Origin: Indolivaga alginatilytica
GTDB lineage: Bacteria; Bacteroidota; Bacteroidia; Bacteroidales; Dysgonomonadaceae
NCBI RefSeq assembly: GCF_003201355.1
Contig: NZ_QICL01000034.1
Coordinates: forward strand, 1-45,593
Direction of reading: 5' to 3'
Length of the DNA: 45,593 nt
Positions 17,417 through 45,428 of the stretch are shown in pieces. Both the position numbers and the translations under genes were made by a program. The notes under the pieces were generated by a model. The model worked only from the letters and a program-made list of their open reading frames with translations. It searched no databases and was not told where the DNA came from. Within the stretch, counting starts at the first letter, position 1. Each line of letters begins with the position of its first letter.

Positions 17417-20400
17417 TTAAAATGCAACATTGACACCTAACATATATGTGGATACCGAAACGCTACCATTATATGTGGATGTATTATCAAATTCGGGATC
17501 CAGTCCTGTGTAATTTGTAAATAGGAAAGGATTGATTGCACTGGCATACACTCTCAATTTCGACATATGGACATTTTTTATCCATTTTAGAGGTACATTA
17601 TATCCTAAGGTAATATTCGATATACGGACAAAAGAACAGTCTCTGTACAATAGCAATTCTTTGTTACCTGCATTAGTTCCGGGACGGTAAAACTCATTGG
17701 ATGGATTTTCGGGAGTCCAATAATTCACTTTTAATTGATTTATTTCGCCCAGATATTCGTTTGAAAGTTCTGCATGAAAACTACTGCGTTTCATTTCGCC
17801 TTGACGTGTGTATGCGAAAATTGCTAAATCTAAATCTTTATAAATGAATGTACTACCCACACTACCTGTCCAATCGGGAAAAGGAGTACCACGTATTATT
17901 TTATCATATTCGGGAGTCATCAGACCATCTCCATTCTGGTCTACTTCCTTTACAGCACCCGGTAAACGAGAGTACTTAGCGGCTTCTTTTTCTTCGCCTA
18001 ATTGCCAGATTCCATTCCAGTCATAATCGTAATGAACCTGCACAGGTTTTCCGATAAATAAATTTTGATCGGGATAATCTTTATGGTTGCCGAATATTTC
18101 TAGAACCTGATTCTTATTTGTTGCGAAATTAAAGACCGTACTCCACGTAAAGTCTTTGGTTTGTATATTAACTGTGTTTAAAGATATTTCGAGTCCCGTA
18201 TTACGGGTTTGTCCGATATTTACAGCCGAAACATCCGTAAAACCATTGGTTTGAGGTATCTTTTGTGCCAATATAAGATCTATGTTGTCCTTACTATAGA
18301 AATCAATAGTACCGCTTATACGAGAAGAGAAAAAGCTGTAATCGATTCCTAAATTGATCTCTTTACTTCTTTCCCAACCTAGCTTGTCGTTCGCAATACG
18401 ATTTAAGTATTGTCCATTTGCGTTGGTGCCGCCAAAATCATACTGAGTATTCGAAACTCCCAGGATAGTAGAGTATGGGTCCACAACATTATTGCCCGAT
18501 TCTCCATAACTGATTCTAATTTTCAGGTCATCAATATTTCTATACTCTTTCAAAAATCCTTCCTCCGAGATACGCCATGCTACGGCTGCGGATGGAAAAA
18601 ATCCCCATTTATTGCCTTCGGCAAGTTTTGAAGAGCCATCGGCACGTCCTGTGAATGTAAATAGATATTTATCGTTGTACGTGTAGTTGACACGAGCCAT
18701 AAATGATAATAACGATTGTTTGTTTTCGGACGATGAACGGCTTTCCACTGCTCCTGCTGAACCGATATTATGCCATTTCGAATTATATGGAAGGTCTTTA
18801 ACAGCAATGAAAGCACTTTCATGCCCCGATTTGTACATACTTGTACCTACCATTGCATTGATGTTGTGTACTTTTTTAAACAGCTTGGTGTAATTAACTG
18901 TATTATCCCATGTAAAAGAATAGCCATTATTATTAGTCAAATTAGCTTTAGGTAATTTAGTTCCTGCACCGGTTTTTGTATAAGTGTCGGCAGAATAACC
19001 AAACCGGTCGCTATATACATTGGGGGCAAAAGCTGTACGAGCGTTTAAGCCATCCAGTATTTTGTAGTCCAGAAAGAAATTGGTAAACAAATTTAATTGG
19101 CGATAATTTGTGTTTTCGTTTCGGGCATCAAACAAAGGGTTCGTAAATCTTTCAGGACGGTATGCCTGAACAAAGAATTGTTCATTACCGTTTTCATCAT
19201 AAGGTGAGGCTGTTGGTCGTAATCTGAAAGCAGATCTTACGGCTTCCGACGAACCTCTGTCTATATCCGCAAAGCGTCCGTAAGCCGATAGGCCAACAGT
19301 TACATTACCTTCTTTAACTTCTACTCCTACTTTGGCATTGTAGCGTCTAAGGCGTTCTCCTTCTACACTTCCTGTCTGATTTACATATCCGATCGAGAAT
19401 ACATGGTTTTCTTTTTCAGTACCTCCTGTACCACTCAGTGTATGCATGGTTTGCATTCCGTTTTGCAACGTGTAATCACGCCAATCGGTAAAATTGCCTT
19501 TTTCGGCATTGTCTTTTTCAAAACCCACCAAAGGATTATGCCACGACCCTCCGGCAATTGCTTCTTTGGCATATGCAACAAATTCTTCTCCATTAAACAT
19601 TCTCGGCAAATTAGTGGGAGTTGTGAAACCAACAGTTCCGTCATAAGTTATTATATTACGACCTACCTTTCCCGATTTGGTTGTGACGATAATAACCCCG
19701 TTTGCTCCACGAGATCCATAAATAGCGGCGGCCGAAACATCTTTCAGGACGTCAATCTTTTCGATATCACTGGGATTAAGAGCATTTAAGTCTCCTCCGA
19801 TAACACCATCCACAATAACAAGGGGATTGGAAGATTTCTGGATAGAGTTTACACCTCTTATTATTATCTTAAAATCGGTACCGAGCTTGCCATCTCCTTG
19901 CGTAACATTTACTCCTGCCATTTGACCTCTCATTGCCCCCAAAGTAGAAGGTTCTCCTGTTGCCTTAATTGTTTGGTTGTCTATTGATTTGACTGATCCT
20001 GTCAAATCGCGTTTTTTCATTGTCCCGTAACCTACTACTACAATTTCATCCAGATTCTGCGAGTCATCCAATAAAACGACTTCCATCGACTTTCTATTGC
20101 CTGCAGGAATTTCTTGTGTAATAGAACCTAGAAAACGGAATACGAGAATACTGTTATCGGAAGCTTCGAGAGAAAATTTCCCGTCTGCATCAGTGAGTGT
20201 ACCTTTGGTTGTTCCTTTTATAAGGACACTTACACCGGGCATGGTCTCTCCTTTAGAATCTTTTACAACGCCTGTTATCATCGGTACCTGTTGACTTGAT
20301 TCAGTATTCCTTGCAGATGTGTCATACTGATCTTCCGACACAAGAGCATTTCCGCTCAACGGAAAAGCGAAGAGTATGAATACAACGTTGCCCAAAACCC

Positions 20401-20443
20401 ATTTTAGGGACAACCTTTTTTTACTTAAATTTTGTTTTTTCAT
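17417..20443 (-). CDS. susC-like: SusC/RagA-family TonB-dependent outer-membrane transporter (left pair)
   Basis: This is the beta-barrel that imports oligosaccharides with energy from TonB. The 1008-residue product has a signal segment (about 1-33), a carboxypeptidase-D-like domain (about 56-125, ITGVVKDSKGETMPGVSV), a TonB-box region DEIVVVGYGTMKKRDLTGS (about 132-150), then the plug (VIVDGVIGGDLNALNPSD, AAIYGSRGANGVIIVTTK) and a barrel ending in the hydrophobic TYMLGVNVAF. No N-terminal sigma/anti-sigma signalling extension is visible, consistent with control by a DNA-binding regulator. It is the first gene of the left arm, with a predicted leader of about 300 nt from the duplicated promoter element at 20747-20813. 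Confidence 0.96.
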   Translation of the reverse strand: MKKQNLSKKRLSLKWVLGNVVFILFAFPLSGNALVSEDQYDTSARNTESSQQVPMITGVVKDSKGETMPGVSVLIKGTTKGTLTDADGKFSLEASDNSILVFRFLGSITQEIPAGNRKSMEVVLLDDSQNLDEIVVVGYGTMKKRDLTGSVKSIDNQTIKATGEPSTLGAMRGQMAGVNVTQGDGKLGTDFKIIIRGVNSIQKSSNPLVIVDGVIGGDLNALNPSDIEKIDVLKDVSAAAIYGSRGANGVIIVTTKSGKVGRNIITYDGTVGFTTPTNLPRMFNGEEFVAYAKEAIAGGSWHNPLVGFEKDNAEKGNFTDWRDYTLQNGMQTMHTLSGTGGTEKENHVFSIGYVNQTGSVEGERLRRYNAKVGVEVKEGNVTVGLSAYGRFADIDRGSSEAVRSAFRLRPTASPYDENGNEQFFVQAYRPERFTNPLFDARNENTNYRQLNLFTNFFLDYKILDGLNARTAFAPNVYSDRFGYSADTYTKTGAGTKLPKANLTNNNGYSFTWDNTVNYTKLFKKVHNINAMVGTSMYKSGHESAFIAVKDLPYNSKWHNIGSAGAVESRSSSENKQSLLSFMARVNYTYNDKYLFTFTGRADGSSKLAEGNKWGFFPSAAVAWRISEEGFLKEYRNIDDLKIRISYGESGNNVVDPYSTILGVSNTQYDFGGTNANGQYLNRIANDKLGWERSKEINLGIDYSFFSSRISGTIDFYSKDNIDLILAQKIPQTNGFTDVSAVNIGQTRNTGLEISLNTVNIQTKDFTWSTVFNFATNKNQVLEIFGNHKDYPDQNLFIGKPVQVHYDYDWNGIWQLGEEKEAAKYSRLPGAVKEVDQNGDGLMTPEYDKIIRGTPFPDWTGSVGSTFIYKDLDLAIFAYTRQGEMKRSSFHAELSNEYLGEINQLKVNYWTPENPSNEFYRPGTNAGNKELLLYRDCSFVRISNITLGYNVPLKWIKNVHMSKLRVYASAINPFLFTNYTGLDPEFDNTSTYNGSVSVSTYMLGVNVAF

Positions 20444-20746
20444 GAAACATAGGTTAACGTGGATTAATATTATAAATAAGGAAAAACGAACGGTGTTTGT
20501 TATGCCACAATGATTTAATTGAGCTGGTTATACTCTTTTCTTTCTTATCTGTGGTCTTTTAAGTAATTCAAATGGTTTTGTGTGTATTTCAAAGCTATAA
20601 CCATCCATAACTGTTATACGTTAGAATCAATAAAATAATTAGTACTGGAAGTTGTTGATAATGTTATTTTTCTAGTAAAATCAATTTTATAAGGATGTTC
20701 TGTTTTTTAAGCTCTTATCTCATATTTTATTTTAAATATATTTTGA
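20444..20746 (-). other. Long leader region of the left-arm susC
   Basis: Between the -7-like box at 20747-20754 and the susC start lie about 300 bp with no gene. A second box, TAGCTTTG in the minus-strand reading (20597-20590), could be an alternative nearer promoter. No strong hairpin or known riboswitch is obvious. The leader could carry translational or small-RNA control, but nothing here proves it. Confidence 0.4.
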
Positions 20747-20813
20747 CAAATATAGAACCGCATATTTCTTTATTATTATCTTTCCTGACTTTAGTATATT
20801 ACTATTTGATATA
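20747..20813 (-). promoter_or_regulatory. Duplicated activator-type promoter element, copy A (drives left arm)
   Basis: Read leftward, this 67-bp element is identical at 61 positions to 26059-26125. It contains two TAAAG motifs exactly 21 bp apart, the spacing of AraC-family half-sites, and ends in TATATTTG (20754-20747), a perfect TAnnTTTG box. There is no TTTG box about 20 bp upstream, as expected for an activator-dependent promoter. The likely binder is the AraC-type protein encoded at 25019-25933; this is inferred. Confidence 0.72.
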
Positions 20814-21203
20814 AGCAGATTATTATACAGTTTTACTGTTTCTATAATTTGGCATAGTTAAAGAGTGAAAGTTCTTATGAACTAAAAATTATCCATTTGT
20901 GGAGATTTGGACTTATAGATATGTGTAAATCTATAGCATATAGAATAAGAAGCATGTAAAACACCTATTCCTGAATGAACAGAATATAGATTGAGGAGTT
21001 GACATTAATACTGTTTTCACATAGAAATTAAAACCAATATTTTATACTGATTTTATATTTTGATACTAATATTATCAAATTAAATAAAATATAATAAAAT
21101 TAAAATAAAATCATCAAATCAAAAAAAAATACCATAATAGGTAACTTGATTGAACAGTGTCAAATTTATATCCTTAGAAAATATCGAGAAGCTATTTTTA
21201 TAA

Positions 21204-21235
21204 AAAAAGTAATGCAAAGCTTTGCATTACTTTTT
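21204..21235. promoter_or_regulatory. 32-bp perfect palindrome, predicted LacI-family operator
   Basis: The arms 21204-21219 and 21220-21235 are exact reverse complements, with core ATGCAAAGCTTTGCAT. The palindrome has no loop, so it suits a protein-binding site better than a terminator. Its TGCAAA-N2-TTTGCA core resembles LacI-family operators and recurs next to the lacI gene at 45363-45392. Its centre is 50.5 bp upstream of the TACTTTTG box at 21270. Confidence 0.72.
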
Positions 21236-21242
21236 ACAGATT

Positions 21243-21277
21243 GAAATTTTCTTGTATCTGATAAATCGATACTTTTG
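21243..21277 (+). promoter_or_regulatory. Promoter candidate of the plus-strand GH106-like gene
   Basis: TACTTTTG at 21270-21277 matches TAnnTTTG. The -33 region is only weakly represented (TTTT at 21247-21250, 19-bp spacer). The predicted operator lies just upstream. The leader to the ATG at 21387 would be about 100 nt. Confidence 0.5.
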
Positions 21278-21295
21278 ATCTTAAATAAAGCCCTG

Positions 21296-21325
21296 ATCCA
21301 ATAAAAATAGAAAATATTATTGGAT
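21296..21325. other. Inverted repeat in the leader of the GH106-like gene
   Basis: ATCCAATAA (21296-21304) and TTATTGGAT (21317-21325) form a perfect 9-bp inverted repeat with a 12-nt spacer, downstream of the predicted start of transcription. It could be a leader hairpin or a second operator. It has no T-tract, so termination is unlikely. Confidence 0.45.
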
Positions 21326-21386
21326 AATTAATGTTACTATTACTACATACCCAACTTTGAATTTTTAGGTATTAATCGAAAAAACT

Positions 21387-24300
21387 ATGAAAAACATTTG
21401 CCTTATTATCAGCCTTTTTCTAAGTGTATACATCATTGCCCAAGAACAACGCTTCAAAGGATATCCTTCACTTAATAATAATATGAATCTCGAAGCTGAT
21501 TTTGCTCATCCGCCTAAAGGATATGGAAATGTCCCGTTTTATTGGTGGAATGGCGATTCTCTCAATCGGGAAAGATTAGCTGCTCAGTTAGACATTCTAC
21601 GCAACGCTCCGATTGACGGTTTTGCAGTGAGCTATATTCACTCTAACCCCAAAGTGGATAAAGAATTAAATAAAAATGGATATGGGCGTTTTGGCAGAAC
21701 AGATCCCGGAAGACCCGAAGTTTTTACGGATAAATGGTGGGATATCTGGAATTGGTTTTCGGGGCAATGCGCCAGCTATGGAATAGGATTGGGATTGGAT
21801 GATTATACTCTCGGCTGGGTAGGAAACGGGTATTGGACTGACGAAATAGTAAAGGAAAAATCATTTCAAGATTACCAGGGAAAACTAAAAATCGAGACCA
21901 TCAGTGTAAAAAGAGGTGAGACAATAAGAGTGCTATTAACTGATAATCTATTACAGATCGTAGCATTTCCGGAAGCAAAAACATTGAAGTCGAATGTCCG
22001 AAACAAAGAACTCGTATGGCAAGCTCCGACAGATAAAGATTGTAAAGTATATATAATTCGTACCGGTTCGGCTTATGAATTGCACCCCGATTATGGAAAA
22101 AGGGTAGTAGAAACCTATTTCGAGAACTTTACCCGCCATTTGGATGAGAAGGCTCAAAAAGGAATGAATTATTTTTTTCAGGACGAACTCGATTACCCTC
22201 TTACAATGCTTTCATGGTCTGAAGATTTGCCACAGGAATTTCAAAAAAGAAAAGGGTACGATATACTTCCTTATCTTCCGGCATTGGTCGATGATATTGG
22301 TGATATAACCCCTAAAATACGATTGGATTATGCTGAGGTATTGACTCAACTGGCAGAAGAAAGATATTTTAAACCGATATTTGATTGGCACGAGAAGCGA
22401 GGCTTAATTTATGGATGCGACAATAACGGGAGAGGACTTGAACCCATCGAGTATGTTGATTATTTCAGAATGACGAGCTGGTTTACAGCTCCGGGGAATG
22501 ACGCTCCTGCACGTGGGTCTAGTTTTCCGCAAACTAAAGTATCCAGCTCTATCAGTCATTTATATAAGCGTCCCCGTACTTGGCTCGAAGCATTTCACAG
22601 CATGGGTTGGGATAGTAATGGTGAATGGCTCACCAAACAGCTTGATCATCATCTCTTAGCCGGAGGTAACCTTGTTTGTATGCACGGGCTATATTATTCT
22701 ACTCATGGAGGATGGTGGGAATGGGCTCCACCTTGTTTCCATTTTAGAATGCCTTATTGGCCTCATATGAAAAAATGGTTGGAATATTCCGAGCGGCTTA
22801 GCTTTCTGTTAAGTCAGGGAACTCATGTGTGCGATATTGCCGTAATGTATCCGACCGAAACCTTACAGGCTTATCCGAATGCAGATACCAAAGGAATGTG
22901 GGATTTAGTAGATAGTCTTAGTATCAGAGGACTCGATTATGACTTTATAGATTATCAATCATTACAAAAAGCAGATATTCAAGACAGTCAATTATCAGTA
23001 TCAGGCGAAAAGTATAAGATTCTGATATTAGCCGATATGAAAGCCCTGCATCATAATACATTACTAAAAGTTCTCGATTTTCATCGCAAAGGAGGAATTG
23101 TAGTTGCTACAGGAGCATTACCCGTTGCAACCTCCAAATCAGGAGCTAATGATCCCGAAATTAAAAAGATTCTTGATGAAATATTTAACACATCATCCTT
23201 AGAAAGGAGGCAGAGCTTTTTTGAACCAGATATGAATAAACTCCTTTCTATGATTCCGAAACTGATCGTTCGGGATTTTATCCCTCAAAACGGTAAAGGA
23301 CGGGTGCTTCATCGCAGAATCGGCGAAAAAGATGTTTATATGGTGGCTGATGTAGCTAAAGATTCAGAAATATTTTTCCGTTCCAAGGGAAAAGTTGAAC
23401 GTTGGATTGGCGAAAGCGGTGCAATTGTAGAGCAACCGATTTTGCGTCAGACCGAAGACGGAACTTGGGTACGTTTCGACGGAGAAGAAAATAATTCACG
23501 TTTAATAGTCTTCTCTCCCGGATCACCTGTTTATGAGAATGTTTCAAACAATAAGATTCAGAAAAAAACAGTTCAATCCATAGAAGGGAATTGGGATATT
23601 GATATAATACCTACCATGCAGAACAAATGGGGAGATTATCGTTTGCCTGCATCTGATGCATATATTGGGGCAGAAGCTCGTGACTTCTCCTATAAATTGG
23701 TTTCTTCTCAGTCAATCGGTACGTCAGCACCTCTTTTCGATGCTACTTCTCCGAAGGGAGTTTATGGCTATGCCCCATATATGGAAACTCAAACGCTGCC
23801 TGCAACGTTAAATCTTAATGAATACCTTTCTTCGGAAGATAATCTGATAAAAGGGAATTGGAAACCCTATTGTTTTTCTTGGCAATACGGTGTTTTTGAC
23901 AGTCCCGGCAGTCAGGGTTATCACGGATTGAAAGGAAAAGTAGATAATCGTTTTATCATTCTCGATCAGGGAGGACACCAACTGTTCAGAACTTATGCTT
24001 ATGCTGATAAAAAGGGTTGGTATAAAATAGAACAAGAAGGTACTGCTCCTGATTTTATATCTATTGGCAACAAGCCTGTAAATGATAAACGAATATACTT
24101 AAGTGAGGGTTGGCATCCATTGGTAATTGCCTACGCCAACACACCCAAAGAAGAATATAATCTGGAAGACAAAAAAAGCTATAGTTGGGACGATCGTAAA
24201 CGAAGTGCCTTGGTCTTATATCCCGAAGAATACCCTGCCTTGTCAACAACTTCGCCTTATGATCATATAATTTCCACAAAATGGTATAATACAGGGTATT

Positions 24301-24959
24301 TGCCTTTCGACCCTTACGCAGGGACTAACGGTAATTGGTATTACCAATTTGAGACAGCTCCCGGAACTAAAGAATTAGTGATGACTATAAAAGGCACTCT
24401 CACTCAATTGTGGATTGATGAAAAAGAATCAGATAGAAATCAAATACAAAAAATGGGGCAGGACGGAATTTATCGGATTAAATTGAATAAAAAGAATTCG
24501 GGTATAAGTACTGTTACCCTCTTGGCAAAACCCGATAGAGGATTTATAGGACCTGCATTATTCTCTAAACCTGTTGAGTTGACTTGTGAAAACGGACAAA
24601 TGCCTCTTGGAGACTGGTCTCAGTTTGGTGCTTTAAAATACTATTCGGGAGGAATGCTATACAAGAAAAAAATAGTAATAACAGAGGATCTGTATAGAAA
24701 AAATGCAATCCTTAATTTAGGAGGAGTTGATGCAACATGCGAAGTGAAAATAAACGGAAAAGAAGCCGGAGTATTGATTAGTCCACCTTATCAGCTTGAT
24801 ATAACCAACCTTGTAAAAAAAGGAGAAAACGTTATAGAAGTATTAATTTATAGTACACTATCCAATCATTACCAAGATATACCATCTGCGTATAGAGGAG
24901 TGCCTCGTGCCGGATTACTTGGACCTGTTGCGTTGGAATGGTTATACTTGCCAAAGTAA
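21387..24959 (+). CDS. Large GH106-like (alpha-L-rhamnosidase-related) glycoside hydrolase
   Basis: This is a predicted exported exo-hydrolase. The 1190-residue protein has a signal peptide (to about IIAQ) and, soon after it, GNVPFYWWNGDSLNRERLAA, the barrel-start pattern of GH106 relatives. Acidic candidates are Glu267 in FQDELDYPL and Glu401 in TWLEAFHSMGW; the segment CMHGLYYSTHGGWWEW matches the substrate-site loop region of this clan. The C-terminal sandwich (about 1090-1190) has LNLGGVDATCEVKINGKEAG and ENVIEVLIYSTLSN. It is about 200 residues longer than the left-arm GH106 protein and diverged from it, so a different rhamnoside or another deoxysugar is likely. It is transcribed alone, from a promoter next to the LacI-type operator, and its stop codon lies inside its own terminator stem. 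Confidence 0.8.
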   Translation: MKNICLIISLFLSVYIIAQEQRFKGYPSLNNNMNLEADFAHPPKGYGNVPFYWWNGDSLNRERLAAQLDILRNAPIDGFAVSYIHSNPKVDKELNKNGYGRFGRTDPGRPEVFTDKWWDIWNWFSGQCASYGIGLGLDDYTLGWVGNGYWTDEIVKEKSFQDYQGKLKIETISVKRGETIRVLLTDNLLQIVAFPEAKTLKSNVRNKELVWQAPTDKDCKVYIIRTGSAYELHPDYGKRVVETYFENFTRHLDEKAQKGMNYFFQDELDYPLTMLSWSEDLPQEFQKRKGYDILPYLPALVDDIGDITPKIRLDYAEVLTQLAEERYFKPIFDWHEKRGLIYGCDNNGRGLEPIEYVDYFRMTSWFTAPGNDAPARGSSFPQTKVSSSISHLYKRPRTWLEAFHSMGWDSNGEWLTKQLDHHLLAGGNLVCMHGLYYSTHGGWWEWAPPCFHFRMPYWPHMKKWLEYSERLSFLLSQGTHVCDIAVMYPTETLQAYPNADTKGMWDLVDSLSIRGLDYDFIDYQSLQKADIQDSQLSVSGEKYKILILADMKALHHNTLLKVLDFHRKGGIVVATGALPVATSKSGANDPEIKKILDEIFNTSSLERRQSFFEPDMNKLLSMIPKLIVRDFIPQNGKGRVLHRRIGEKDVYMVADVAKDSEIFFRSKGKVERWIGESGAIVEQPILRQTEDGTWVRFDGEENNSRLIVFSPGSPVYENVSNNKIQKKTVQSIEGNWDIDIIPTMQNKWGDYRLPASDAYIGAEARDFSYKLVSSQSIGTSAPLFDATSPKGVYGYAPYMETQTLPATLNLNEYLSSEDNLIKGNWKPYCFSWQYGVFDSPGSQGYHGLKGKVDNRFIILDQGGHQLFRTYAYADKKGWYKIEQEGTAPDFISIGNKPVNDKRIYLSEGWHPLVIAYANTPKEEYNLEDKKSYSWDDRKRSALVLYPEEYPALSTTSPYDHIISTKWYNTGYLPFDPYAGTNGNWYYQFETAPGTKELVMTIKGTLTQLWIDEKESDRNQIQKMGQDGIYRIKLNKKNSGISTVTLLAKPDRGFIGPALFSKPVELTCENGQMPLGDWSQFGALKYYSGGMLYKKKIVITEDLYRKNAILNLGGVDATCEVKINGKEAGVLISPPYQLDITNLVKKGENVIEVLIYSTLSNHYQDIPSAYRGVPRAGLLGPVALEWLYLPK

Positions 24960-25003
24960 TAAAAAGGTTTTAGACCTTGATGTCAGACCCTTTTATTGCT
25001 TTG
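24952..25003. terminator. Terminator hairpin overlapping the GH106-like stop codon
   Basis: A 19-bp stem (24952-24970 with 24985-25003) has one A-C mismatch and two U-G wobbles in the plus-strand RNA. The last sense codons and TAA of the gene (24957-24959) are in its left arm. Both arms resemble the dispersed repeat at 10133 and 39431, in opposite orientations. It lies between convergent genes and may act in both directions. Confidence 0.7.
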
Positions 25004-25018
25004 AAATGGGGGCGAATA

Positions 25019-25933
25019 TTATGAAACAGACCCTTCGGTTTGCAAAAAACGCCCCTGTGTAACCTCTCTGTATTTAATCGGTGAAACTCCTGTTTTCTTT
25101 TTGAATGTTATACAAAAATAGTAAGGTGTTTCGAATCCGACTTCAAAAGCAATCTCTTGACTAGTCATAGATGAATTGGTCAGTAGCTCTTTACTTTTTT
25201 GTATACGTATTTCTTGTATATAATTTGCAGGAGAAAAACCTGTATATTGTTTAAATAACTTTCGAAACCAAGAATAACTTAAACCCACATTAATGGCTAT
25301 ATCTTCAATATTTATTTTTTCATTATACTGCTCTCCCATTAATATCTTCGCCTTATTGATCTGATTCAGGACTTTAAGGTCTTTAAAAACAAGTTGTTTA
25401 TTTTCGGCATATACATAACCTAACAAGAGATTCACTATACCGGATAACATCTGCTGAAATCCAGCTCCTTGATATTTTGCTACTTTTACTGCCAATTGAT
25501 ACAAATGAATAATGTCATCATTGATACCTACATTTAAAACGGGGTTACTTTTTTTGAAAAAGCCTGAATTTACTTTGTTAGTTATGTCAAGGCCCTCAAA
25601 TCCAATCCAGAACTCATACCAACCGGTAGCTTTAGATGGCTTGTAATTATGCCATTCTCCCGGAAATAACAAAATAAAACTTCCTGCTTCAATAGAAACT
25701 TTTTTTTTGCTTGATGATACAAATTCACCTTTCCCATCAGCAATGTATATTAGTTGGTATTCGTTTAGTATTCGCCCCTTTTCTGTAGAGAATATATATC
25801 TGGTCGGGTGCTTTTTTGATGGATATGGAGTGTTGATTCCAATTCTTTGGTAACCAACAGTATTAATAACAACTCCCCAATCTATATCCTGTTCATTCGA
25901 TAATAAATATTTTACATGTTCTGCACTTTTCAT
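25019..25933 (-). CDS. AraC-family transcriptional regulator
   Basis: This is a sugar-responsive DNA-binding protein. The preferred start (25933, 304 residues) gives MKSAEHVKYLLSNEQDIDWG, typical of this group; an upstream in-frame start at 26005 adds 24 residues. The N-terminal cupin-like sensor domain (about 15-165) contains HPTRYIFSTEKGRILNEYQL, GSFILLFPGEWHNYKP and GWYEFWIGFEG. The C-terminal double helix-turn-helix (about 205-300) has INIEDIAINVGLSYSWFRKL, FKQYTGFSPANYIQ, then SQEIAFEVGFETPYYF and FKKKTGVSPIKYR. The gene is divergent from the isomerase gene and next to one copy of the duplicated promoter element, so it is the best candidate to activate both arms. The effector is unknown; an L-sugar such as arabinose or rhamnose is plausible. 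Confidence 0.93.
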   Translation of the reverse strand: MKSAEHVKYLLSNEQDIDWGVVINTVGYQRIGINTPYPSKKHPTRYIFSTEKGRILNEYQLIYIADGKGEFVSSSKKKVSIEAGSFILLFPGEWHNYKPSKATGWYEFWIGFEGLDITNKVNSGFFKKSNPVLNVGINDDIIHLYQLAVKVAKYQGAGFQQMLSGIVNLLLGYVYAENKQLVFKDLKVLNQINKAKILMGEQYNEKINIEDIAINVGLSYSWFRKLFKQYTGFSPANYIQEIRIQKSKELLTNSSMTSQEIAFEVGFETPYYFCITFKKKTGVSPIKYREVTQGRFLQTEGSVS

Positions 25934-26058
25934 ATTAGTAGGTATATAAAGGTTTATAAGTCCGAATCTACACAAAGAGATGATTTTTTGTGGAAGTGTT
26001 TCCACTCCTTAATCATATACAATTATACAAATAATAATAAAACGATACAATCATTTTT

Positions 26059-26125
26059 TATATCAAATAATAATATGCTAAAGTCAGGAAAGATAATAGT
26101 AAAGAAATATCTGGTTCTATATTTA
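26059..26125 (+). promoter_or_regulatory. Duplicated activator-type promoter element, copy B (drives right arm)
   Basis: This is the rightward twin of 20747-20813. TAAAG motifs at about 26079 and 26100 are 21 bp apart, and the element ends in TATATTTA (26118-26125), one base from the TAnnTTTG consensus, 26 bp before the isomerase ATG. It lies in the gap between the araC and isomerase genes. Confidence 0.72.
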
Positions 26126-26151
26126 CCAAATACTTATTAAATCTAAAAACT

Positions 26152-27576
26152 ATGAAAAATGCGTTTAAGGTAGGGGTATTTGGTTGTGGATTGGAAGCAT
26201 ATTGGCTACAATTTGATGGTCTGCTTAATTCATTAATACAATACCAAAACGATGTCTGTAATAAAATATTATCTAGATCCGGAGTTGAGGTTGTAAATGC
26301 TGGCATGATTGATAATCCTCAGAAAGCAATTGATGCTGCATCAATTTTTCAAAAAGAAGAGATTCAACTCGCTTTTATTTTTATTACAACATATTGTCTT
26401 TCGTCGACTATACTTCCTATTGCTCAGCGAATCAACTGCCCTGTGATAATTTTGAATCTTCAACCGAAAGCAGCTATTGATTATGAATATATAAATAGTC
26501 TTAAAGACAGAGGCGAAATGACCGGTTATTGGTTACAAAATTGTCAGGCTTGTTCGGTTCCTGAAATCGCAAATGTCTTTAACAGAAGTGGTATTCGTTT
26601 CGAATTGGTGACAGGGTATTTTGATGATGATGTTGCATGGACTGAAATTGATGATTGGGTTCTTTCAGCGAAAGTTAGATATGCGATGAAAAATAACCGT
26701 CTTGGAATTTTGGGGCACTATTATAATGGAATGATTGATGTATATACCGATCTGGCTCAACAATCTGCTGTATTTGGCACCCACATAGAGCTTTTAGAAA
26801 TGTGTGAACTTAAAAAGTATAGGGATAAGGTAACCGAACCGGAAGTTAATGCAAAAATAAAAGAATTTTATAATGTGTTTGATGTTTCGGATGATTCCGA
26901 GCCTTATGAAATCAGAAGAGCGGCTCAAACATCGGTCGCTATGGATAAATTGATAAAAGCTCATGATCTGGGATCATTGGCTTATTATTATGAAGGAGAA
27001 AGTGGAAGTGAATATGAAAATATCGTGACATCAATCATTGCCGGAAATACGTTGTTGACGGGCAGAAATATTCCTGTTGCCGGAGAGTGTGAGGTGAAAA
27101 ATGTTCAGGCAATGAAAATCTTATCGGAATTTGGAGCCGGTGGCTCTTTTTCGGAGTTCTATGCAATGGACTTCAATGACGATATTGTAATGCTGGGGCA
27201 TGATGGTCCTGCTCATTTTGCTATTGCTGAGGGACGTGTCGGGTTGGTTCCTGTTCCGGTATATCACGGAAAACCGGGGAAGGGCTTATCTATTCAGATG
27301 TCAGTAAAGCATGGCGATGTAACTCTTTTATCAGTCTGTGAGAATAGAGACGGAGTGTTTTTATTAATTGCAGAAGGGCAGTCGGTTGAAGGTCCGACAT
27401 TAAATATTGGCAATACAAATAGTCGTTATCGTTTCAGTTGCGGTGCTCGTGAGTTTATAAATTCATGGAGCAAGGTAGGTCCTTCGCATCACACTGCAAT
27501 TGGAGTAGGTCATGTAGCTTCAAAAATTCAAAAACTAGCTTATCTATTAAATATTCCTGCTGTAAAGGTGGGTTAA
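26152..27576 (+). CDS. L-arabinose isomerase-like (AraA-related) sugar isomerase
   Basis: This is a predicted cytoplasmic, metal-dependent aldose-ketose isomerase; there is no signal peptide. The 474-residue protein starts KVGVFGCGLEAYWLQFDGL, as in the AraA/FucI fold N-terminus. Glu312 (AGECEV), Glu335 (SFSEFYAMDF), His350 (LGHDGPAH) and His447 (GPSHHTAIG) match in order and spacing the four metal ligands of Escherichia coli AraA (Glu306, Glu333, His350, His450). The protein is somewhat shorter than AraA and looks like a separate Bacteroidota branch, so the substrate could be L-arabinose, L-fucose, L-rhamnose or another released sugar. It is the first gene of the right arm, directly downstream of promoter copy B, which ties intracellular catabolism to glycan uptake. 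Confidence 0.82.
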   Translation: MKNAFKVGVFGCGLEAYWLQFDGLLNSLIQYQNDVCNKILSRSGVEVVNAGMIDNPQKAIDAASIFQKEEIQLAFIFITTYCLSSTILPIAQRINCPVIILNLQPKAAIDYEYINSLKDRGEMTGYWLQNCQACSVPEIANVFNRSGIRFELVTGYFDDDVAWTEIDDWVLSAKVRYAMKNNRLGILGHYYNGMIDVYTDLAQQSAVFGTHIELLEMCELKKYRDKVTEPEVNAKIKEFYNVFDVSDDSEPYEIRRAAQTSVAMDKLIKAHDLGSLAYYYEGESGSEYENIVTSIIAGNTLLTGRNIPVAGECEVKNVQAMKILSEFGAGGSFSEFYAMDFNDDIVMLGHDGPAHFAIAEGRVGLVPVPVYHGKPGKGLSIQMSVKHGDVTLLSVCENRDGVFLLIAEGQSVEGPTLNIGNTNSRYRFSCGAREFINSWSKVGPSHHTAIGVGHVASKIQKLAYLLNIPAVKVG

Positions 27577-44247: not shown

Positions 44248-45297
44248 TCAAATTGTGTTTTTAGTAGGGGGTACTCTCTGATTGTTTTTTACAGATGATT
44301 CCCTTACTGCCAGATATGTTGGTATAATTATTTGCTGCGGCTTTTCTCTTTTTTTTATTTGTTTAAGCAGCAAATGACACACTGTTTGACCCATTTTATG
44401 GGTTTGATGTGTAATTGCAGTCAGTGGAGGGTCTACATAATTGGAATGCATTTCATCTGTATAACCTATTAGAGATATATCGTCAGGAATACGTAATCTA
44501 TGCTCTTTGATTGCTTTCATTGCTCCAAAGGCAATACTATCGGTCATAGCCAGAATAGCATCGGGAGGATTAGATAAGGACAGAAGTTTACATGCTCCTT
44601 CATATCCTTCACTATAGCCCATATATTTACAAAAAACCAAATCCTTATCAATTGGAATTCGGTATTCCCTGAGAGCTTGAAGATAACCGTGCTTTCTTTG
44701 ACGTACTATTTCTATGTGATTGGCTCCTCCAATAAACGCAACACGTTTAGACCCTGTATTTAACAAATGCAATGTTGCTAGTCTTGCAGATTCGATATTG
44801 TCGGCTATTACTGATGAAAATACATCAGGGAGGCATATCCTATCGAAAAAGACCAATGGGATGTTCAAATCTTCAAGAGATGTAAAATGCAAATAATCGG
44901 TAGTCTCTTGAGATAAGCAGGCAATAATACCTTCAACTCTAACATTTACTAAATCTTCTATACACTGAATCTCCGCTTTATACGAATCGTAGGAAGAAGT
45001 TATAATTACAGAATATCCGTTTTGCCGGGCTATATTATCTATTCCGGTAATAATCGATGAGTAAAAATGAGTGACAATATCAGGTATAAGAATACCAATG
45101 ATACGGGGAGTATTTTTAAGTAAACTCATAGCAAAAGGATTGGGGCGGTAGTTCCATTCTTTGGCCAAAGCTTTAACACGCAGCCTTACCTCTCCACTAA
45201 TCTCAGGACTATCTTTCAATGCCCTTGAAACAGTAGAAATAGAAATACCAAGCTCACATGCCAAGTCTTTTAATGATATGTGTTTTCCTTCTTTCAT
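44248..45297 (-). CDS. LacI-family transcriptional regulator
   Basis: This is a sugar-sensing DNA-binding protein of the LacI/GalR type. The ATG at 45297 (349 residues) places the helix-turn-helix directly at the N-terminus: HISLKDLACELGISISTVSR, then ALKDSPEISGEVRLRV and the hinge region with YRPNPFAMSLL. The periplasmic-binding-protein-like effector domain (about 60-335) includes GILIPDIVTHFYSSIITGID, PLVFFDRICLPDVFSSVIAD and DISLIGYTDEMHSNYVDPPL. An upstream in-frame TTG at 45375 is unlikely, because it would start inside the palindrome. The gene is divergent from the reductase and has a palindrome 66 bp before its start. The same palindrome core upstream of the GH106-like gene suggests that both are targets. 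Confidence 0.94.
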   Translation of the reverse strand: MKEGKHISLKDLACELGISISTVSRALKDSPEISGEVRLRVKALAKEWNYRPNPFAMSLLKNTPRIIGILIPDIVTHFYSSIITGIDNIARQNGYSVIITSSYDSYKAEIQCIEDLVNVRVEGIIACLSQETTDYLHFTSLEDLNIPLVFFDRICLPDVFSSVIADNIESARLATLHLLNTGSKRVAFIGGANHIEIVRQRKHGYLQALREYRIPIDKDLVFCKYMGYSEGYEGACKLLSLSNPPDAILAMTDSIAFGAMKAIKEHRLRIPDDISLIGYTDEMHSNYVDPPLTAITHQTHKMGQTVCHLLLKQIKKREKPQQIIIPTYLAVRESSVKNNQRVPPTKNTI

Positions 45298-45319
45298 CAG
45301 GTTATTAATGAGGTTGATA

Positions 45320-45327
45320 CAAATATA
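45320..45327 (-). promoter_or_regulatory. Promoter -7 box of lacI
   Basis: In the minus-strand reading this is TATATTTG, a perfect TAnnTTTG box 22 bp before the ATG. No clear TTTG box lies about 20 bp upstream. It is 50.5 bp from the centre of the palindrome at 45363-45392. Confidence 0.55.
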
Positions 45328-45362
45328 GATGTTTAGCTTAAATATTCGAAGTAGTATATAAG

Positions 45363-45392
45363 AAAAGATATGCAAAGGTTTGCATATCTTTT
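45363..45392. promoter_or_regulatory. 30-bp palindrome, predicted LacI-family operator between lacI and the reductase gene
   Basis: Perfect 14-bp arms (45363-45376 and 45379-45392) flank a central GG, with core ATGCAAAGGTTTGCAT. The core matches the palindrome at 21204-21235 except at the centre. It lies between two divergent TAnnTTTG boxes at almost equal distances (50.5 and 51.5 bp from its centre). Confidence 0.75.
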
Positions 45393-45428
45393 CCTTACAG
45401 GTTTAGCATTATAATTTCAGCTTATCTC

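Follow-up and report, generated by a model that had tools for sequence, protein, structure and literature searches.

Inverse copying of a putative AraC-type operator and promoter core probably places both arms of a plant-polysaccharide cluster of Indolivaga alginatilytica under one RhaR-like regulator

The window analysed here, a 45,593-nucleotide stretch of Indolivaga alginatilytica DNA (contig NZ_QICL01000034.1 of assembly GCF_003201355.1), carries a plant-polysaccharide cluster arranged as two divergent arms. The left arm (minus strand, 20443 to 2506) encodes SusC, SusD, GH3, GH92, two GH28 proteins, an arabinofuranosidase and GH106, and its first gene, identified by family scan, is a SusC-like TonB-dependent receptor (17417..20443, minus strand). 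The right arm (plus strand, from 26152) encodes an isomerase, GH95, a rhamnosidase-like protein, GH31, SusC, SusD, an alpha-L-fucosidase and a rhamnosidase. Positioned between the arms are a GH106-like gene, GH106b (21387-24959, plus strand), and an AraC-family gene on the minus strand. The isomerase that heads the right arm (26152..27576, plus strand) is distantly similar to L-arabinose, L-fucose and sulfoquinovose isomerases and scores above the cut-off of no curated NCBIfam model, reaching 54 bits of 700 for sulfoquinovose isomerase and 48 of 622 for L-arabinose isomerase. Relatives of this isomerase are found in 19 of 101 genomes of the family (its own included), many adjoining rhamnosidase-like genes, and relatives of the window araC gene are found, within flanks of up to 1.5 kb, at three of the 19 isomerase loci (the window's own, L086 and L094); the araC genes of L086 and L094 show 44% identity and lie downstream of the isomerase. 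In a sample of 393 genomes of the order, the left-arm SusD was found at E <= 1e-80 in the window's own genome only, among the matches listed, with at most three candidates scored per genome, such that relatives may be missed. Additionally, a LacI-family regulator gene at the right end of the window (44248-45375) is a possible second regulator of the cluster. Perfect inverted repeats are present at 21204-21235, upstream of GH106b, and at 45362-45393, around the called lacI start, with arms of 16 and 15 nt respectively, and both contain TTTGCAT.

The AraC-family gene between the arms (25019..25933, minus strand) encodes an intact RhaR-like regulator, as judged from its relatives, Pfam domains and phylogenetic position. 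Comparison with relatives best sets its start at 25933, which makes the GTG at 26005 given in the open reading frame list about 24 codons too early, and the araC-isomerase intergenic region is accordingly 218 bp long and holds one of the two promoter cores described below. The Pfam domains detected at E <= 0.001 in the 328-residue open reading frame are HTH_18, HTH_AraC and AraC_binding alone, identifying a one-component AraC-family protein. A tree of 60 sequences joins the window regulator first with that of L038 (support 0.96), then with L037, L039 and L040 (0.98), and next with L071, L073, L075 and L076 (0.90), followed by L074 and L072 (0.97), and by this sequence comparison it is a member of the RhaR-like group. 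The genome's own rha operon is located on C5 beside a separate regulator (locus L077), which is 43-44% identical to the window regulator, and no rha catabolic genes were found among the 20 window proteins scanned.

The two promoter cores consist of copy A (20747..20813, minus strand), which faces the left-arm susC, and copy B (26059..26125, plus strand), which faces the isomerase. The reverse complement of copy A is identical to copy B at 61 of 67 positions, exactly as the initial annotation had stated. When the two intergenic regions are compared without gaps, the highest 67-mer match is 62, obtained with a one-base shift, with the next-best diagonal at 40 and a maximum of 41 among 30 Markov-shuffled pairs. 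Each copy is oriented toward its downstream gene, and both end, as had also been proposed, at a -7 box resembling TAnnTTTG (TATATTTG on the left and TATATTTA on the right). A 20-bp stretch of the core, TAAAGTCAGGAAAGATAATA, has two exact matches in the 5.12-Mb genome, both at the core copies, and allowing three mismatches yields four more (L003-L006), compared with two for the reversed control pattern. Searches for further copies with TAAAGTCAGGAAAGATAATA and by BLAST of longer pieces returned no third good copy; a BLAST match on contig C28 (L070; E 7e-4 and 0.003) was set aside because it sits at the start of an unrelated open reading frame. Weak matches on C8 (E 0.03) and C21 (E 0.07) were also set aside. 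The full pattern, which was derived from the window sites and is therefore fitted by them by construction, matches copies A and B alone in this genome with at most one mismatch. Two mismatches add a single match on C13, which adjoins a gene resembling a hybrid two-component system (HTCS) by eye and may be a site of that gene, and three mismatches add eight more, with two matches in total for the reversed control.

Within each core we identify a layout that resembles an AraC-type operator fused to a Bacteroidetes promoter, with half-sites 21 bp apart. The distal half-site of copy A (beginning TCAAATAGTAATAT; 20793..20809, minus strand) starts 55 bp ahead of the -7 box, and the proximal half-site (beginning TCAGGAAAGATAAT; 20772..20788, minus strand) follows at a spacing of 21 bp and starts 34 bp ahead of the box; the box itself, TATATTTG at 20747..20754 (minus strand), is an exact TAnnTTTG. 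The same offsets of 55 and 34 bp apply to the distal (26063..26079, plus strand) and proximal (26084..26100, plus strand) half-sites of copy B, whose -7 box TATATTTA (26118..26125, plus strand) carries one mismatch to TAnnTTTG. The pattern TTTG-N17-23-TAnnTT[TC][GA] is absent from both promoter regions, and this lack of a -33 TTTG at both cores is in keeping with promoters that depend on an activator beside the -7 box. The distance from box to start codon differs between the copies, at 303 bp to the left susC versus 26 bp to the isomerase. The predicted long leader of susC (20444..20746, minus strand; about 300 nt) folds no better than its shuffles (z +1.08), and an Rfam search of 20400-26200 up to E 0.1 gave no match. 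A second candidate -7 box (TAnnTTTG) is positioned at 20597-20590, closer to susC than the box of copy A. A relaxed-pattern scan of the window detected the two cores only, with none ahead of GH106b.

The initial annotation described the 67-bp block as a duplicated promoter element; the match itself is sound, but its full extent was underestimated, as the block forms the core of an inverted duplication of about 340 bp that includes a decayed araC relic. The left copy of this duplication spans 20707..21046 (minus strand), while the right copy (25824..26168, plus strand) is intact and runs from the 5' end of araC across the full intergenic region into the first bases of the isomerase gene. Smith-Waterman alignment of 20707-21046 with 26168-25824 gives a score of 298.5, where 100 shuffles reached no more than 63, and the upstream part beyond the core scores 169 by itself, against a maximum of 62 in 200 shuffles; BLAST reports 75% identity over query bases 33-345 (E 7e-47). 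The duplication thus takes in all of the DNA between araC and the isomerase gene, along with about 37 araC codons. The corresponding araC relic (20938..21046, plus strand, start approximate) contains indels and an internal stop, and its differences are spread over codon positions 1, 2 and 3 as 6, 7 and 8, the even distribution expected of a decayed relic. It aligns best to the window's own araC gene (score 97.5, 77 of 101 positions), with the best of 11 relatives at 63, and this greater closeness to the window gene suggests that the copying took place within this lineage. The resemblance of the left copy to the first bases of the isomerase gene is weak (anchored p 0.04-0.26) and suggestive only, and a search of the left copy for an isomerase remnant beyond those bases found none. 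Spacer positions inside the core match between the copies at 20 of 23, and common descent of the larger duplication would explain much of the core match without co-regulation. A palindrome, GTGGAAGTGTTTCCAC, is present at 25990-26005 in the araC-isomerase intergenic region, and no second exact site of this form occurs in the genome; the left copy has a different palindrome-like stretch, AGTTCTTATGAACT, at the matching place. We considered GTGGAAGTGTTTCCAC as a LacI operator and rejected it, since no regulon could be built from a single exact genomic site.

The inverted copies flank GH106b and araC, as the ends of an invertible, phase-variable DNA segment would, but this explanation is very improbable given that their overall identity is just 75%, that no recombinase family was found in the 20 open reading frames scanned of the 31 listed, and that inversion would keep both outward promoters in place.

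Decay of the duplication has been uneven. The core retains 91% identity, compared with 73% on the leader side (29 of 40), 71% in the remaining intergenic DNA (86 of 121) and 80% in the araC part (83 of 104). Comparing the core (61 of 67) with the other segments (198 of 265 aligned positions) gives a Fisher p of 0.003. As the core had been chosen as the best stretch, we corrected for this choice by permuting the 353 alignment columns 20,000 times; windows of at least 61 of 67 appeared in 89 permutations of single columns, 160 of 5-column blocks and 353 of 10-column blocks, and the best real window (62 of 67) was matched in 23 of 20,000. The corrected p is thus 0.001-0.02. Taken one segment at a time, the core is better kept than the intergenic part (p 0.0015) and the leader side (p 0.015), with the contrast to the araC part marginal (p 0.055). 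The simplest reading of these sequence differences is that selection kept the core in both places, with local gene conversion a possible alternative cause of its preservation.

The operator layout was compared with that at 12 loci of our choosing, 11 from other genomes and L077 from the window's own genome. Half-site offsets were read with a word list that was compiled after the sites had been seen. A related araC gene is divergent to an isomerase relative in L037 (a Tannerellaceae MAG), L038 (Bacteroides cellulosilyticus) and L039 (an Alistipes MAG). In the same-genus genomes of L073 and L071 a related araC gene is divergent to kduI, which encodes 5-dehydro-4-deoxy-D-glucuronate isomerase and was assigned by NCBIfam in L073 and by the same protein start in L071, and in L074 and L076 it lies beside rhamnulokinase-like genes that score just under the TIGR02627 cut-off. 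A gluconate 5-dehydrogenase/kduD-like gene is also close by in L071 and L073. Half-sites 34 and 55 bp ahead of the -7 box are found in both window copies, L037, L038, L039 and L073; the offset is 55 alone in L074 and L076, 56 in L071, where the layout is one base longer, and 35 in L077. A like layout upstream of isomerase, kduI or rhaK genes beside a related araC gene is therefore seen at 7 of the 12 loci scanned. The remaining relatives were scanned with the 20-bp core (66 loci) and the relaxed pattern only. Across 78 loci and the window, the relaxed pattern is found at both window sites and in L037, L073 (also in L011, a shorter twin of L073) and L046, where it is upstream of an araC gene of about 44% identity. 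When spacings were compared in 12 sequences, the proposed pair gave 4 matches and the other 125 spacing pairs 1 match in all.

Two scoring matrices were also applied. A leave-out matrix trained on four sites from other genomes, which had been picked by eye, ranks copy A 1st and copy B 3rd of 91,054 window positions and each of the four other sites 1st in its own locus, with an unrelated window position, 37886 (plus strand), scoring slightly above copy B. The less circular matrix, built from the window copies only, ranks the araC-adjacent site 1st in L037, L038, L039, L073 and L074, 2nd in L071 and 3rd in L076; it places that site outside the best four in L040, L041, L072, L075 and L077 (5 of the 12). 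The rank margins with this matrix are small (12.9 vs 12.4 in L037), and a coding-region position in L075 scores 21.7, higher than all seven counted sites outside the window. A region-shuffle test gave p of 0.003 to 0.08 singly for the seven regions and 7e-8 combined, or 3e-7 with three other tested regions added (10 in all, the set being the 12 loci without L041 and L072). The L077 promoter of the genome's own rha operon shows no match to the window matrix (p 0.87), though the word 35 bp ahead of its -7 box is half-site-like.

We consider it probable, on these sequence comparisons, that the intact RhaR-like regulator activates both arms, the left susC having been recruited through the duplicated divergent promoter. 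The initial annotation had likewise proposed that one regulator switches both arms; this proposal gains from the half-site and -7 box layout shared with sites beside related araC genes and from the lesser decay of the core, and loses in that common descent accounts for much of the match on which it was founded. On this reading the RhaR-like activator encoded at 25019-25933 would use the 67-bp block as its operator and core promoter. The divergent promoter of an ancestral araC-isomerase pair would have been copied, inverted, to a site upstream of the left-arm susC; the araC end of the left copy would later have degenerated, with selection retaining the operator and -7 box. A regulator dimer with its sugar ligand is predicted to occupy the two half-sites 21 bp apart, directly upstream of the -7 box, and to recruit RNA polymerase at promoters that have no -33 TTTG, so that both arms would be turned on together. 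Sequence comparison shows the duplication with its relic, its uneven decay and a layout common to other genomes; binding, activation, co-expression and the direction of copying are what we infer. The regulator's kin and the presence of rhamnosidases in both arms point to L-rhamnose, or a related sugar freed by the cluster's rhamnosidases, as the probable inducer.

The left copy has the appearance of a regulator-plus-promoter piece that was copied and then lost its regulator gene to decay, so that the core survives. It is placed between susC and the araC relic in the manner of a divergent araC-susC promoter, and this position, together with the weak similarity into the isomerase start (anchored p 0.04-0.26), is also what would be expected if two once-separate clusters, each with its own divergent araC gene, had become adjacent, the left araC gene decaying as the right one served both and the left promoter having always belonged to susC. 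We regard this history as unlikely, since the relic is nearer to the window's own araC gene than to the 11 relatives and the core spacer matches at 20 of 23 positions, which together suggest that the copies split late, and since in L037-L039 the araC gene faces the isomerase rather than susC. Less likely still is that the duplication left an inert leftover at this site and that susC is driven from another promoter, such as the TAnnTTTG box at 20597-20590. The long leader, the nearer position of that box and the marginal advantage of the core over the araC part (p 0.055) are in keeping with this possibility, but the core is 91% identical where the adjoining copied DNA is at 71-80%, and copy A has both half-sites intact, an exact -7 box and the top score of all window positions.

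Probable activation of both arms by the RhaR-like regulator can be compared with known Bacteroidetes systems. The Bacteroides AraC-family RhaR motifs are direct repeats with a 21-bp period, according to PMC3870299, and the window regulator resembles that RhaR (BT3768) in being a one-component AraC-family protein with a 21-bp direct-repeat layout in its predicted core; its relatives in L074 and L076 also adjoin rhamnulokinase-like genes. The RhaR regulon as reconstructed in PMC3878776 consists of one catabolic operon, whereas the window regulator is positioned in a polysaccharide cluster and the rha operon has a separate regulator (L077). HTCS motifs are described in PMC3878776 as predicted direct repeats averaging 21 bp, with one motif serving several operons of a cluster, and the window regulator is comparable in its AraC-type DNA-binding domain, its predicted 21-bp repeats and the predicted placement of more than one operon under the same motif. 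Unlike an HTCS, it has AraC-type domains only, with no sensor, histidine kinase or receiver domains. Promoters of sigma-ABfr, the primary sigma factor of Bacteroidetes, have a TAnnTTTG -7 box as given in PMC7366714, and the window cores share this box, exactly in copy A and with one mismatch in copy B, but differ in having no TTTG at the -33 distance. No paper on promoter duplication in such polysaccharide clusters was found in the open-licence literature.

A more complete history, for and against which we find the case evenly balanced, is that the cluster has been caught midway in recruitment, having gained a whole second import-and-degradation arm through inverse copying of a rhamnose-type regulator's divergent promoter to a site before susC; the regulator copy would then have rotted away, leaving just the operator-promoter core, and a cytoplasmic monosaccharide sensor would have assumed control of a type of susC arm that membrane HTCS sensors often govern. 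In our view, DNA sequence rarely reveals how a polysaccharide cluster of several arms was brought under one regulator. In this case a single 6-kb stretch holds the likely source, the copy derived from it, the decayed by-product of copying and the core that was kept better, and the duplication suggests a route by which a second gene set passed under shared control. The predicted operator layout is open to testing and may apply to sugar regulators that adjoin rhamnose (rhaK), uronate (kduI) and polysaccharide genes.
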